Assembly: GCA_017694555.1 (NCBI GenBank)
Contig: JADIMS010000059.1
Location: forward strand, 1-34,840
Source of the DNA: Candidatus Avitreponema avistercoris
GTDB lineage: Bacteria > Spirochaetota > Spirochaetia > Treponematales > Treponemataceae
Direction: 5' to 3'
Length of the DNA: 34,840 nucleotides
Shown here: piece by piece, positions 20,898 through 34,756 of the stretch
How the letters are laid out: each line of letters begins with the position of its first letter
Numbering within the stretch: position 1 is the stretch's first letter
The notes under the pieces: generated by a model
What the model was told of the DNA's origin: nothing
Database searches by the model: none
Seen by the model: only the letters and a program-made list of their open reading frames with translations
Program-made: the position numbers and the translations under genes

Positions 20898-21327
20898 GCT
20901 TGCAGAAAAAAAGACTGAATACAGGCAGGTGTACCGGATAACGGACGGCGTATACGCCGCCTTCCAGTTTTGCTCGCGGGACTATAACCCGCTGCATACG
21001 GATCCGGCGTTTGCCGCTTCCCACGGCTTCGGGGAATGCGTGATGTACGGGAATATCCTGAATGCGTTTGTCTCGCATTTTGTCGGGATGGCGCTTCCTG
21101 TCCGTGATGTGATGATCCAGAAGCAGGAGCTGGCTTTTCACAAGCCTTGTTTTCTTGGAGATGAATTGACACTGTGTGCGCACGTGGACTTTGTTTCAGA
21201 AGCAGTCAATGTCCTTGCGTTTAAGTTGCGGTTTACACGAAACCGTGACGGAAAACCGGAAACAGTTGCCAAAGGTTCCGTGCAGATCGGCTTGCTGCGC
21301 GGCGCAGAGACAGAAGGGGGGGGGTAA
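20884..21327 (+). CDS. MaoC-like (R)-hydratase/dehydratase
   Basis: A 147-residue single hot-dog domain protein of the MaoC/(R)-specific enoyl-acyl hydratase type. The hydratase signature reads SRDYNPLHTDPAFAASHGFGECVMYGN, with the catalytic Asp and His in DYNPLH. In this operon it would act on an acyl group held on the nearby acyl carrier protein or on CoA. The real start is ATG 20884, just inside the end of the FkbH-like gene with a purine-rich GGGGAAAAG before it; the longer ORF starting at 20668 is not used. The gene ends with nine consecutive G coding GGG GGG GGG directly before TAA. The next gene starts at the following codon. Confidence 0.87.
   Translation: MTVSELAEKKTEYRQVYRITDGVYAAFQFCSRDYNPLHTDPAFAASHGFGECVMYGNILNAFVSHFVGMALPVRDVMIQKQELAFHKPCFLGDELTLCAHVDFVSEAVNVLAFKLRFTRNRDGKPETVAKGSVQIGLLRGAETEGGG
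21316..21324 (+). repeat. G9 homopolymer at the MaoC/SDR junction
   Basis: Nine G residues encode the last three glycines of the MaoC-like protein. They are followed at once by TAA and by the TTG start of the SDR gene. The tract is also the only possible Shine-Dalgarno-like sequence for the SDR. Confidence 0.9.
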
Positions 21328-24811: not shown

Positions 24812-26338
24812 ATGTTAGATAGCAAGCGCATAGCAAAGAATACGATATTCTTGTACTTCAGAATGATTCTGGTAATGGCGGTTGCATTATATACATCGAG
24901 AGTTGTTCTGGGCATATTGGGAGCTTCTGATTATGGTCTTTATAACGTAGTAGGCGGAGTCGTCACCATGTTCGCATTTGTTAATGGTGTCCTCAGCTCG
25001 GGAACATCAAGGTTTATTACTTACGAACTAGGCATGGGAGATGATGAGAAGCTAAGAGATATTTTTAATGTGGCGCTTGTTTCACATATTGGGTTAGCGT
25101 TTATTGTTTTTATTCTGGCGGAAAGTGCGGGGGTGTGGTTTATCAATACACAACTTGTGTTTCCTCCCGAGCGTACACTGGCAGTCAATGTGGTTTATCA
25201 GCTATCTGTCCTCACTTTGATGTTGCAGTTTACCCAATTGCCATATACCGCTACGATTATCGCCCACGAGAAAATGAATGTTTATGCTTATGTAGGGCTC
25301 CTTGACGTAGGTTTGAAACTGCTGATGATACTCTTGCTGAATCTCAATCGTTCGTTAGATAATCTTATTTTATACGCTATATTGATTTTCTGTGTTCAGG
25401 TTATCACGCTGGTTATATATCGAATTTATTGTTTGCGCCATTATCAGGAATCACATTGGCGATTAAGTAAAGATAAGCAAAAATATAAAGACATTTTCTC
25501 CTATGCGGGGTGGGATGTCATAGGATCTCTATGTGTTATTACTCAGGGACAAGGTGTTAACATTCTGCTTAATATTTATTTTGGGCCCGTTGTCAATGCG
25601 GCTCGTGCTATATGCTATCAGGTGGAGGGAGCCTTTAATCAATTGACAGGTAACTTTATGACGGCATTAACCCCTCAGATAGTCAAAAGTTATGCCAAAA
25701 ATGAGATAGATGACATGTTGGAACTTATCAAGGATGGCTCCAAATATGGTTTCTTCCTTTTGGCGGTTTTTTTGATACCTGTAATGTACAAGATAGACTA
25801 TGTTTTGAATCTGTGGTTGATAGATGTTCCGGCACAAACAGCTCTATTTGTTCTTATAATTCTAACTAATACTATGATTAGAGTGATAGCAAGGCCTGTG
25901 ATAAGCGGCGTGCATGCTACAGGTCGCATTAAACGACTTGATATATATGCAGGAGGCATAGGATTGATGCCGCTTCCGCTGATTTGGGTGCTTTTTGAGA
26001 AGGGTTTTGCCGCTCATTATGCTTTTTGGGTGATTTTGCTTTGGGGAGTTTTTGCTAATATAGCAGAGATCATTATCTTTAAGGTTGAATTGCCAGAATT
26101 TCAAGTGATAGATTATTGTATTTCAGTTTATGGCAGATGTTTTATAGTAGCGGCAGGCGTGTTGTTTATAGACAATATATTGCTGGACTTTTTCGCGAAT
26201 CAATTCCTGTCTGTTTGTTTGTATTTTGCTTTGACTTTTGCTTTAAATGCCTCGATAGTCTTCATGTTAGGATTTAATCGAAGACAGAGAGGAAAGATTT
26301 TAAATGTACTGTATGGTAGATTAAAACAATTATTATGA
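24812..26338 (+). CDS. Wzx-like polysaccharide flippase
   Basis: A 508-residue membrane protein of the MOP superfamily with about 12-14 hydrophobic helices. It starts MLDSKRIAKNTIFLYFRMILVMAVALYTSRVVLGILG and continues YGLYNVVGGVV, as in oligosaccharide flippases of gut Bacteroidetes. It would move lipid-linked glycan repeat units across the inner membrane. Base composition and codons are strikingly AT-rich compared with the first 24 kb, which points to transfer. No Shine-Dalgarno sequence is visible before the ATG, which is common in Bacteroidetes genes. Its stop overlaps the next start (ATGA), so the cassette is an operon. It is separate from the drug-type MATE protein at 11943. Confidence 0.88.
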   Translation: MLDSKRIAKNTIFLYFRMILVMAVALYTSRVVLGILGASDYGLYNVVGGVVTMFAFVNGVLSSGTSRFITYELGMGDDEKLRDIFNVALVSHIGLAFIVFILAESAGVWFINTQLVFPPERTLAVNVVYQLSVLTLMLQFTQLPYTATIIAHEKMNVYAYVGLLDVGLKLLMILLLNLNRSLDNLILYAILIFCVQVITLVIYRIYCLRHYQESHWRLSKDKQKYKDIFSYAGWDVIGSLCVITQGQGVNILLNIYFGPVVNAARAICYQVEGAFNQLTGNFMTALTPQIVKSYAKNEIDDMLELIKDGSKYGFFLLAVFLIPVMYKIDYVLNLWLIDVPAQTALFVLIILTNTMIRVIARPVISGVHATGRIKRLDIYAGGIGLMPLPLIWVLFEKGFAAHYAFWVILLWGVFANIAEIIIFKVELPEFQVIDYCISVYGRCFIVAAGVLFIDNILLDFFANQFLSVCLYFALTFALNASIVFMLGFNRRQRGKILNVLYGRLKQLL

Positions 26339-28329: not shown

Positions 28330-29088
28330 AATGAAAAACTCAATGCTGGACATTACGGAAACAAATTGCTTGGTTGTTTCGCCGCTATGCAGATTGACGG
28401 GGTCGTGCATTTGGCAGCTTTTCAAGCTTTTTCTCCGGAAGAAGGAGAAATAAAAGATTTGGTGCTTTCTAATATTTGGCTTGGAACTGCGCTTCTTGAG
28501 GCTTGTAAAAAAGCTGACGTTAAATGGTTTTTAAATACAGGAACTATATGGCAAAATTACCAGTCTCCGGATTTTTTAGATGTATATAATCCGGTAAATC
28601 TTTATGCAGCGTCTAAGCAGGCTTTCCTTTCCATGGCCAAATATTATACTGAGACCTCTTCAATTCGATTTTGTACTTTAAAACTTTGTGATACATATGG
28701 TCCTGGGGATACAAGAAAGAAAATTTTATCACTATTTGATGAAGCCCGTCAGACCGGATGTAGGCTTGATTTGACCCCCGGTAAACAACAAATCGATCTG
28801 CTCCACATTAATGATGTTGTTTCCGGGTTTGTCCGTTTGACTGCAATTCTTGCGGATCAAGAATTTCCGGTTTGTCCAGAATATGTTTTGTCTTCGGGAA
28901 AAAGAATTTCTTTAAGAAATCTGGCTGTTCTTTATGAGAAGAAATATCATACAAAATTGAATATCTGTTGGGGTGCTATCCCTTACCGGGAACGTACTGT
29001 TATGATTCCGTATAAGGGTAATATTCTGCCCGGATGGTCGCCGATTATAACAGAGGAGGATTTGTACGGAGATGAAATCCCGTCTTGA
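28330..29088 (+). pseudogene. N-terminally truncated NAD-dependent epimerase/dehydratase
   Basis: The frame opens after a TAA at 28327 and reads NEKLNAGHYGNKLLGCFAAMQIDGVVHLAAF, which joins an extended-SDR epimerase about 45 residues in. The first beta strand and glycine-rich NAD motif are absent. The rest is intact: VHLAA, a catalytic-site region (NTGTIWQ, LYAASKQ with YxxxK), YGPGDTR and a C-terminal substrate domain to the stop. The TTG at 28366 in the ORF track has no ribosome site. Without the NAD-binding loop it is very probably inactive. The break coincides with the right edge of the AT-rich cassette. Its stop overlaps the next start by 17 bases, so translation may still serve coupling. 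Confidence 0.75.
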
Positions 29089-30091
29089 ATATTACGACTT
29101 TCTGCGCGGTGTCGCGGTGATCATGGTTGTTGCGATACACACGTTTGGCGTTGTGTACATAGATGAAACGCTGACGCTTGCCGGCATATTTGTGCGCGAA
29201 CTTCTGAACTGCGCGGTGCCGCTGTTCTGTGTGTCGAGCGCGTTTTTTCTCATCAATAAGAATACAGGAAATTACAAGATGTATCTTGTGCCGCATATAC
29301 TGCGCGTGTGGATACCGCTTTTGGTGTATTCGTTTCCGTGGTTCGCGTATGACGTCTGGAAAAACGGCGCTGGCCTTACGGGTGTGCTGAAGCTGATTGG
29401 GGGGGGGTATAGCGTCTATTACTTTGCCGCGGTAATCCTTCAGTTTTATGTTCTGCTGCCGCTGTTCCAGAAATATAAAATCTTTCGGAATGTGCCTGTG
29501 ATGTGTTTGATCTCGCTGCTGTGGGTAGCGGGATATATTTACATTGTCTATCCAGAGTATTCGCAGCTTCCGCTTTTGGCATATGGCGGCGTGATCTTGT
29601 GTTGGCTTGTGTATTTTGCGCTGGGAGCTGCCTTTATGAAAGACGGAATAAAAAGCCGTGTTTCTGTCCGCCTGTGTCTTGCAGGCAGTATCGCGGCGCT
29701 TGCATTGAGCTTTGCCGAATGTATCTTCTTGCGCGAAAAACCTGGCGCGTTGCCATTTGATGGAATCGGACTAAAGCCCTCTGCGGTTCTGTTTGCCGTT
29801 TGCGTATGTGCCTTGCTGTATTCTGACCGGTGTGCGCAGCTATACCGGCGCGACGCTGTCCGGCGGTTTATTGCCTGCCTGGGGCGATTCAGTTATGGTA
29901 TGTATCTTGCTCATATGTATGTGCTGTGGGCAGGCGGAAAAATTCTTGCATTCACAGGATTCGGGTTCCCGGGGATAAAGCTGTTGTGGTGGGCGGCGTA
30001 TACCGCAGTTGTCGCGTGCATAACGTTCGCTCTCCTTTCCCTTGTAAAGAGAATCAGTCCGGAAATTTCCAAAGTGTTTTTTGGTGTATAG
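29072..30091 (+). CDS. Membrane acyltransferase (acyltransferase-3/OafA-like), with G9 tract
   Basis: A 339-residue integral membrane protein with about ten hydrophobic helices. It begins KSRLEYYDFLRGVAVIMVVAIHTFGVV, the hallmark R/DxLRGxAxxxVxxxH opening of acyltransferase family 3. Such proteins O-acetylate sugars in lipopolysaccharide or capsule, using acyl-CoA from the cytosol. Codons at 29399-29407 are GGG GGG GGG, then TAT, inside LIGGGYSVYYF. With nine G the frame is open and the protein full length. One extra G gives GTA TAG, an immediate stop. The start overlaps the broken epimerase; GGAG precedes it closely and GAGGAGG lies further upstream. Confidence 0.88.
   Translation: MKSRLEYYDFLRGVAVIMVVAIHTFGVVYIDETLTLAGIFVRELLNCAVPLFCVSSAFFLINKNTGNYKMYLVPHILRVWIPLLVYSFPWFAYDVWKNGAGLTGVLKLIGGGYSVYYFAAVILQFYVLLPLFQKYKIFRNVPVMCLISLLWVAGYIYIVYPEYSQLPLLAYGGVILCWLVYFALGAAFMKDGIKSRVSVRLCLAGSIAALALSFAECIFLREKPGALPFDGIGLKPSAVLFAVCVCALLYSDRCAQLYRRDAVRRFIACLGRFSYGMYLAHMYVLWAGGKILAFTGFGFPGIKLLWWAAYTAVVACITFALLSLVKRISPEISKVFFGV
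29399..29407 (+). repeat. G9 homopolymer inside the acyltransferase gene (in frame)
   Basis: Nine G at a codon boundary, followed by TAT. Slippage by one base in either direction ends translation soon after: at once with G10, and after a few codons with G8. Confidence 0.9.
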
Positions 30092-30094
30092 AAA

Positions 30095-31240
30095 ATGAAA
30101 ATCGGTATTCTTACCTTCTGGTGGTCCGCTGACAATTACGGGCAGCTTTTGCAGGCGTACGCGCTGCAAGCCTACTTGCGCGGGCAGGGGCACGACGCGT
30201 ACCTAATCCGCTACAAATGGGAAAAGGACTTTACGCCGTCGCCGCTTGCGCTTCGCCTCCTGAAGGCGTGCAATCCCGTTTTGCTGTTCCGCTTTTTCAG
30301 CGCGCGGCGCAGAATTCGCGCGGCGAAACAAGAGCAAGCCGCGTTTGACCGCGGATTCGACGCGTTCCGCGACCGGTACATCGCGCAAAGCCCGCGCGTT
30401 TACAACTCTTGGACGGAACTTCGCGAAGACCCGCCGCAAGCCGATTGCTACATTGTTGGCAGCGACCAAGTTTGGAATTTCGGCGCCATTCCGCTCGCGC
30501 GCTGCCGATCTGCCGTGCACGCGTACTTTTTGGATTTCGGCAAACCTGAAACCGTGCGCCTTTCGTACGCGGCAAGCTGGGGACGCGTAACGCTCCCGGA
30601 TGAATACGCGCGGGAAATCGCGCCGCTTCTTTCGCGCTTCCGGTACGTTTCCGTGCGGGAAGAAAGCGGCGTTTCGCTTTGCGTGCAATGCGGCTTTCCC
30701 GGTGCGCGCTGGGTGCGAGACCCGACGCTGTTGTTGGACGCTGAGGCGTGGCGCGCGCTCTATAAAGAAAACGAATTGCGCGAGCCAACCGGGCGCTATC
30801 TTTTTCTTTACATGCTCGGAAATGAATGCGAATTTGATATTGAAACTGTCTATCGTTTCGCGCGCGAGCGGAATCTTCAAGTTGTCTACGTGACGGGCAA
30901 CAGCGTTGTTGACCGCAGAGAGAAATGGTTCGCCACGATTCCGGAGTGGCTCGCTCTTGTCGATCACGCGGAGTATGTCGTGACGAACAGCTTTCACTGC
31001 TGCGTGTTCAGCGTCTTGTTTGAAAAGCGCTTCGCCGTGATCCCGCTGAAAGGCGCGGCCGGCGGAATGAACGCGCGCATGGATTCGCTCTTTGAATTAT
31101 TCCGGATGAAGCCGCGTTGGCTGCGCGGGGACTTTTCTGTGCTGGAGAGCGAGGCGGATGCCCGCGTGCCGGACACGTTCCGGTTTGATTTACAAGAAGC
31201 GCTCGGCGAAACGAGCGAAGGGACGCGCGAAAGCCGTTAA
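30095..31240 (+). CDS. Polysaccharide pyruvyl transferase family protein
   Basis: A 381-residue soluble protein of the CsaB/WcaK-like group. MKIGILTFWWSADNYGQLLQAYALQAYL is the usual opening (GxxNYGxxLQAyAL). YIVGSDQVWNFGAIPL and the late VTNSFHCCVFSVLFEKRF are the other family marks. Members transfer pyruvate from phosphoenolpyruvate to a sugar as a ketal, or act as related glycan-modifying enzymes, often together with FrhB-like proteins such as the one at 22365. It begins three bases after the acyltransferase stop. Composition is GC-rich with heavy use of GCG and CGC codons, unlike the AT-rich cassette to its left, so a separate origin is likely. It ends overlapping a minus-strand gene by four bases. 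Confidence 0.87.
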   Translation: MKIGILTFWWSADNYGQLLQAYALQAYLRGQGHDAYLIRYKWEKDFTPSPLALRLLKACNPVLLFRFFSARRRIRAAKQEQAAFDRGFDAFRDRYIAQSPRVYNSWTELREDPPQADCYIVGSDQVWNFGAIPLARCRSAVHAYFLDFGKPETVRLSYAASWGRVTLPDEYAREIAPLLSRFRYVSVREESGVSLCVQCGFPGARWVRDPTLLLDAEAWRALYKENELREPTGRYLFLYMLGNECEFDIETVYRFARERNLQVVYVTGNSVVDRREKWFATIPEWLALVDHAEYVVTNSFHCCVFSVLFEKRFAVIPLKGAAGGMNARMDSLFELFRMKPRWLRGDFSVLESEADARVPDTFRFDLQEALGETSEGTRESR

Positions 31241-33662: not shown

Positions 33663-34154
33663 GCCCGTAATTGCTGAGTGATTCTCTTCCGGCCAAAACT
33701 GAATGGCTGAAACAGGACAAAAAGCTTTACCGAAAATCAGCATTATCGTGCCGGTATACAATACCGCGCGTTACCTTGCCCGCTGCCTTGACAGCATCGC
33801 GGCGCAGACGTTCACTGACTGGGAGTGCATCTGCGTGGACGACGGATCGCCGGACGCGAGCGGCGCAATCCTTGACGAGTACGCGGCAAAAGACAGCCGC
33901 TTTGTCGTGCTGCATCAGGAGAACGGCGGCGTAAGCCGCGCACGGAACGCCGGCCTTGACGTGGCGCGGGGAGAGTGGATCGCGTTTGTGGACAGCGATG
34001 ACTGGGTGGAGCCTGAAACGTTCGCGCTTGCCCATGAGGCCGCCGCCGCGCACAACGCGGATTTGGTGCAGTGGGATTATGTGTTTGAGGACAACGGGAA
34101 ACGGATCGTCGGGCTTTCCTTGGCGGAAGGGCCGTTTTCTGTTTCGAAGAATGC

Positions 34155-34213
34155 CACATACTTTTGTCCAAGTATGTGTCATAAATTAGTTTTAAGAAAA
34201 CTAATTTATGACA
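34155..34213 (+). repeat. Two consecutive perfect hairpins inside the glycosyltransferase gene
   Basis: CACATACTT (34155-34163) pairs with AAGTATGTG (34170-34178) around six bases. Then TGTCATAAATTAGTTTT (34177-34193) pairs with AAAACTAATTTATGACA (34197-34213) around AAG: 17 perfect base pairs. The patch is AT-rich within a GC-rich gene, yet stays in frame and encodes CHKLVLRKLIYDNH, a normal-looking GT2 segment. Confidence 0.9.
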
Positions 34214-34446
34214 ATCATTTGTTATTTCCGGAAAACATCCGCCTTTCGGAAGACCGCCTGTTTTCGTTTCAGTGCAGCTTGATCGCGCGCCGCGCCTTCC
34301 ATTTGAATCGCGCGCTTTATCACTATACGGCGAACGCGTCTTCTGCGAGCCACAATATGACGCGCGAAATGATTTTGGAAGAAGTGGAGGTTGTGAAAGA
34401 GATGGAGCGGTTCTCTCTCGATTTTGAACGCAACGCCGTCCTGAGC

Positions 34447-34456
34447 GGGGGGGGGG
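34447..34456 (+). repeat. G10 homopolymer inside the glycosyltransferase gene (out of frame)
   Basis: Ten G beginning at a codon boundary and followed by TAT. Nine would keep the frame open; ten gives GTA TGA. The same G-run-plus-TAT layout occurs at 29399-29410. Confidence 0.92.
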
Positions 34457-34756
34457 TATGACGGCGCCCCGCTTCTTTTCGCGCAGAAGCTTGAGCCGAA
34501 GCTGCATGCGCTGCTCGGTTTGCTGGAACCGGACGCGAATCTTTGCCGCGCGGTGTTCCCGGAAACAAACCGTAAGCTCTTCGGCAATTTCCTGCGCAAG
34601 AAGACGCGGTCTGCTTTCCTGCTGCTGCTTGCCGCCCTGCGCATGGATTTCCTTGTGCGTCTCGCGGTTCAAGTCCGCAAGGTGTTCATGGCGTAACGCC
34701 GCAGAGAATGCCCGCGCCCGAACGACGCGCTTTGATTTTGAAGCGGGGCGCGCGGC

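Follow-up and report, generated by a model that had tools for sequence, protein, structure and literature searches.

Runs of G8 to G10 lie inside glycan biosynthesis genes among the surface-glycan loci of Campylobacter jejuni, where switching rates have been measured. Large repertoires are mentioned for this species (PMC11868660). Among acyltransferases of the AT3 family, oafA of Haemophilus influenzae encodes a phase-variable lipooligosaccharide (LOS) O-acetyltransferase in which repeat slippage alters glycan acetylation (PMC9558356, PMC11868660), and the O-antigen acetylation mediated by Salmonella oafB is phase-variable in a manner dependent on DNA methylation (PMC9558356). In Treponema pallidum, the poly-G tracts of tp0126, tprE/G/J, and tprL, about 7 to 11 bases long, vary in length, and the tract of tp0126 sets the distance between the −35 and −10 elements (PMC7864442).

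Here we describe a G9 tract inside an AT3 gene of an uncultured treponeme, placed in its family by way of its named relatives, and located in a stretch of DNA of 34,840 nucleotides (the window). The gene resembles oafA of H. influenzae as an AT3 gene that would be switched ON and OFF by slippage of a simple repeat, but oafA carries a tetranucleotide repeat, belongs to a proteobacterium, and has a function and an immune effect shown by experiment, whereas the repeat in the window is poly-G. With Salmonella oafB it shares the AT3 family, but the switching of oafB is epigenetic and involves no homopolymer, and its AT3 domain is fused to an SGNH domain, which the window protein lacks. The tracts of T. 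pallidum, presumably a member of the same family, are of the same repeat type, and those in promoter spacers resemble the intergenic tracts described below, but they lie in promoters of outer-membrane protein genes, whereas the window tract is part of the reading frame of a glycan-modifying enzyme. The C. jejuni loci are alike in having poly-G runs within glycan genes and differ in belonging to another phylum and in having measured rates.

We conclude, at a probability of roughly 0.88, that the G9 tract represents a poly-G contingency locus, that is, a site of simple-sequence phase variation, at which the AT3 gene, and with it probably the O-acylation of an exported glycan, is switched on and off. 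Phase-variable AT3 genes and the poly-G tracts of T. pallidum are already known; less expected is that uncultured treponemes have recruited AT3 genes repeatedly. Phase variation in treponemes has so far been known mainly from T. pallidum, where it concerns the promoters of outer-membrane protein genes, and the locus described here is a coding-frame version in a glycan-modifying enzyme of uncultured, probably gut-associated treponemes, in which AT3 genes have been made switchable repeatedly. This suggests that commensal spirochaetes use acylation of the surface glycan for bet-hedging against phage or host immunity.

The tract, its reading frames, and the acyltransferase

The tract is read as ATT GGG GGG GGG TAT within an open reading frame (ORF) that is intact as assembled (Table 1). 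Its G10 version gives GTA TAG, placing a stop at the second codon after the tract, and its G8 version gives GGT ATA GCG ... CGG TAA, with the stop nine codons beyond it; the G9 thus combines a slippable repeat in a coding frame with early stops in both other frames, as expected of a contingency locus. The initial annotation had placed an in-frame G9 in an acyltransferase-3 gene at exactly this position, which the sequence and the match to PF01757 confirm, and its statement that one added G leads at once to GTA TAG follows from the sequence. All tract lengths given here are single consensus values from assemblies, and homopolymers are a known class of error.

Table 1. Features of the window discussed in the text.
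Feature	Position	Strand	Remarks
Third G9 tract	21316..21324	+	Final codons of a MaoC-like gene, followed by TAATTG; absent from the initial annotation
Probable polysaccharide flippase (Wzx-like)	24812..26338	+	Based on sequence character and likeness to the gene in the same place in relatives; no Pfam match
AT3 gene (Acyl_transf_3, PF01757)	29072..30091	+	339 aa; intact (ON) as assembled
G9 tract	29399..29407	+	Codes for Gly110-Gly112; predicted slippage switch
Polysaccharide pyruvyl transferase (PF04230)	30095..31240	+	Also adjoins AT3 in G003, G045, and RUG314
GT2 glycosyltransferase (PF00535)	33703..34461	+	Cut short as assembled by G10 (GGG GGG GGG GTA TGA); OFF
GT2 G10 tract	34447..34456	+	5.0 kb from the AT3 tract; TATGAC follows
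GT2 post-tract frame	34457..34696	+	YDGAPLL...LCRAVFPETN...; resembles the C-terminus of the G015 orthologue

Membership of the AT3 family was judged by a Pfam match above the curated cut-off across the whole domain, and the window protein matches PF01757 over profile positions 2–324 of 326 (E = 1.6e-25; 90.3 bits versus a cut-off of 31). The R-X10-H motif that defines AT3 helix 1 (PMC9833829) is present as R12 and H23 in transmembrane (TM) helix 1 (residues 6–28); among 15 AT3 proteins compared from treponemes and related organisms, H23 is invariant and R12 nearly so. At the RXXR site on the cytoplasmic face of TM helix 3, which has been described as highly, not absolutely, conserved (PMC9833829), the second arginine alone (R78) is present; it is conserved in the four orthologues, which have H/Q-X-X-R, and the motif is thus incomplete. 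In an AlphaFold2 model (pLDDT 85, pTM 0.86), Gly110–112 form a short break or loop between a helix at residues 101–110 and a membrane helix at residues 114–134, the region equivalent to the re-entrant TM3-TM4 loop described for OafB (PMC9833829). A fold search for a solved AT3 structure gave weak matches only, to the transmembrane acyltransferases HGSNAT and GWT1 (E > 0.1), which were taken as no more than mild support. A scan of IMG/VR returned no relatives of the AT3 protein, so that there is no sign of a phage origin.

The gene lies in a surface-polysaccharide cluster that includes the flippase, the pyruvyl transferase, and NDP-sugar enzymes, and the switch would therefore most likely act on the O-acylation of an exported glycan. 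In the same region, the epimerase ORF at 28366–29088 covers only positions 60–224 of the PF01370 profile; its N-terminal nucleotide-binding part is missing, and it looks truncated. Slipped-strand mispairing during replication would presumably add or remove one G. The G9 allele would be read through into the full multi-helix acyltransferase (ON), and alleles of G8 or G10 would meet a stop within about 12 codons, leaving roughly 112–122 of 339 residues and losing most membrane helices (OFF); a frameshift at the tract deletes the last two thirds of the protein. In this way, O-acylation of the glycan, probably O-acetylation, would be turned on and off in subpopulations. We infer the acyl donor, the acceptor, the benefit, and live switching in this species.

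Orthologous loci and competing explanations

Relatives of the window AT3 were sought in 98 related genomes, its own included, at a threshold of E ≤ 0.001, and two genomes besides its own were found to contain one. The same search found no orthologue in the congeners G001 and G002, for which reason we used other genera for this gene and a sister AT3 gene for comparisons within the genus. In the nearest orthologue, that of G003, from another genus of the same family, the match falls into two pieces that join at the tract and are 48–53% identical to the window protein on each side. The G003 DNA reads AAA TTT ATC followed by G10 and TACAGTGTATATTATTTTGCC, and its first frame ends shortly past the tract; in the other frame comes GGGYSVYYFAALIIQFYILLPLF, which is similar to the window protein. 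G003 thus carries a G10 at the same codon as the window G9, one G more, and is an OFF allele. Because this gene is broken exactly there, the window tract is very likely an on/off switch; given that G003 belongs to another genus, its G10 may possibly reflect pseudogenisation following slippage.

The AT3 gene is intact in two further loci, G045 (the same sequence as the record Spirochaetaceae bacterium RGIG8712, from water deer colon) and uncultured Treponema sp. RUG314, in which the tract site reads SCSYSVFYF or FFCGYSVYYF. Since FFCG and SCSY stand in place of the glycines, these are not required, and other residues are evidently tolerated in the loop; we rejected conserved glycines as the cause of the tract, two orthologues having SCS and FFC where the window protein has GGG. 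The initial annotation had suggested comparing the Gly-Gly-Gly stretch with homologues; glycines conserved in mixed codons at constant length, which would have spoken against a switch, did not appear, and we found instead the G10 frameshift in G003 and FFCG or SCSY elsewhere. The AT3 gene of G045 has an in-frame G10 of its own near the C-terminus, at a position different from that of the window tract, where RUG314 reads TGGGGW in mixed codons (GGG GGA GGC GGC), which is a tract that has decayed or else a run of glycines that is tolerated there. The pyruvyl transferase gene follows AT3 in all four loci (window, G003, G045, and RUG314), and a Wzx-like flippase gene and an FrhB-type gene lie upstream of it in the window, G003, and G045; this neighbor order common to the relatives supports the orthology of the AT3 genes. 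In G045, the FrhB-type gene (L052:10198-11381) is split into two overlapping frames, possibly by a further frameshift. The idea of switchable glycan decoration with O-acylation now on is largely supported as regards the tract, its ON frame, the frameshift in G003, and the polysaccharide cluster; O-acylation itself we infer.

Three other explanations of the tract were weighed against a contingency locus. The G-run could be mutable but unselected, with the OFF alleles of relatives representing decaying pseudogenes, and the truncated epimerase indicates that decay does occur in this region. We consider this improbable in view of the excess of tracts and the bimodality of run lengths in the genome and of a roughly 40-fold enrichment of tracts in AT3 genes, where they occupy several unrelated positions (see below); moreover, the two halves of OFF alleles are both open and, except at the tract, similar to intact homologues over their full length.

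A programmed slippery site, at which slippage of RNA polymerase or the ribosome on G9–G10 yields a fixed mixture of full-length and truncated product from unchanged DNA, is less probable still. Transcriptional slippage can arise at long G-runs and would keep G10 alleles partly functional, but at a G9 that is already in frame it would only lose product, the length of the DNA differs between orthologues at the same site, and two orthologues do without the run. Hardly any weight attaches to an artefact of sequencing or assembly, such as the poly-G of two-color chemistry. The assembly is a draft of metagenome style (169 contigs, 80% complete), and 2 of its 19 tracts (on C31 and C67) are embedded in nearly identical sequence about 160 bases short of a contig end; against this, the tracts are contig-internal and occupy orthologous codons in independent assemblies, and the reading frame is correct both before and after the tract.

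Poly-G tracts and AT3 genes across the family

Exact pattern searches of the whole genome (G000; 1.87 Mb, 80% complete, 169 contigs) returned 1 run of G7, 6 of G8, and 19 of at least nine, against 0.1–1.8 runs of at least nine expected from Markov models of order 2–4. An order-1 model predicts about 22 such runs, a figure that we discounted because the model has no memory of run length and is contradicted by the sharp drop from length five to seven. In a 242-kb sample, runs of length 5, 6, 7, 9, and 10 numbered 117, 6, 0, 8, and 9, respectively; this sample was picked to include all long tracts, a bias from which the genome-wide G7 and G8 counts are free. The lengths of G-runs are bimodal, and the excess of tracts is not due to chance. 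By codon usage, three successive glycines would be written GGG GGG GGG 1.2% of the time, and among the window genes checked 2 of 6 such triplets are, namely those of the AT3 and GT2 tracts.

The search by protein family found exactly three AT3 genes in the genome, each with a tract inside the gene (0.03 expected at random placement): the window gene (G9, ON) and those on contigs C68 (G9, ON) and C115 (G10, OFF). The G10 of C115 corresponds to a G9 in the congener G001, with 40 bases upstream and 24 downstream identical, and the G001 orthologue is likewise out of frame. The tract position of C68 is common to G022 (G8, ON) and G015 (G9, OFF), and in G006 and G015 still other AT3 genes bear tracts, at positions different from these. 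Tract lengths that differ between related genomes, together with ON and OFF alleles, mark a contingency locus, and such differences are found at the window tract (G9/G10) and at that of C115 (G10/G9). Overall, 11 of 37 AT3 genes examined in 13 family genomes, a count that covers the family genomes with AT3 genes and only part of the AT3 genes of G014, contain a G or C run of at least nine (0.28 expected), an enrichment of about 40-fold spread over at least seven positions. A literature search, with most subscription journals outside its reach, found no description of repeated AT3 recruitment by poly-G, which thus appears to be undescribed so far. The single-contig genome G072 has a homopolymer of 61 C (L073:2588-2648) about 90 bases past an AT3 match, either an assembly artefact or an extreme tract.

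The GT2 gene, which the initial annotation had described as sharing the layout of a G-run followed by TAT, does have G10 followed by TATGAC, and its switch is real but currently OFF, the frame ending at GTA TGA; as assembled, therefore, AT3 is ON and GT2 is OFF. Its orthologue in G015 is 59% identical, free of a tract, and has LCRSLFPEIN at its C-terminus. The layout shared by these two unrelated genes is poor evidence of selection for a +1-frame stop, as it is a family-wide signature that marks intergenic promoter tracts too. In the 33 family genomes with tracts, TA follows 200 of 485 G-runs of at least nine, and AT precedes only 56, compared with TA after 67 of 463 in other families of the order. 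Since TA follows tracts throughout the family, the layout is not special to the AT3 and GT2 genes. At many intergenic tracts the TA opens a −10 box (TAAACT, TAGAAT, TAAAAT, or TATAAT), TTGAC(A/G) lies upstream, and the G-run occupies the spacer; among coding tracts, TA comes next in 12 of 18, without a −35 box. That the layout arises in general from selection for a stop directly in the +1 frame was rejected, TA following coding and intergenic tracts alike and TAT and TAC being no stops.

Promoter-spacer tracts with 14–20 bases from TTGAC(A/G) to TAnnnT occur across the family, for example at L042:12515, L045:9883, L046:9343, L086, L087, L094, L103, L104, and L107; that of L046, a G12, has a mannose-1-phosphate guanylyltransferase-like gene before it and a glycosyl transferase family 4 gene (PF00953) after it. 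The third G9 tract of the window belongs to a cluster of FkbH, MaoC, and SDR genes, and the TTG of the TAATTG that follows it is the start of the SDR gene. A change in its length would alter the end of the MaoC-like gene and the start region of the SDR gene, with a possible effect on coupling or on the Shine-Dalgarno region.

Taken together, we lean toward the view that uncultured host-associated treponemes have a large poly-G phasome, which in several lineages would comprise some 20 switches or more per genome, with AT3 as a preferred target. Tracts at no fewer than seven separate AT3 positions would in that case stand beside GT2, DNA methyltransferase, lipoprotein, and promoter-spacer switches, all with the G-run followed by TA, pointing to a family-specific rule for the origin or action of tracts.

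Several further genes have tracts of this kind. On contig C6 of G001, a probable DNA methyltransferase gene (L112:1398-2160) is split by a G10 directly after its DPPY motif and is OFF, making it a candidate phase-variable methyltransferase (phasevarion), and in G000 a G10 lies 17 bases ahead of the start codon of a DNA methylase gene (PF01555, L043:5560-6231). A G10 at L037:19580-19589 comes right after the lipobox-like LFSSCDTGN, what follows lies in a different frame, and the gene is a candidate phase-variable surface lipoprotein, OFF. Finally, a 1351-aa PAS/GGDEF/EAL signaling protein, encoded on the minus strand (L038:3623-7675) just upstream of a CheB-type gene, has a G10 at both ends of its reading frame.
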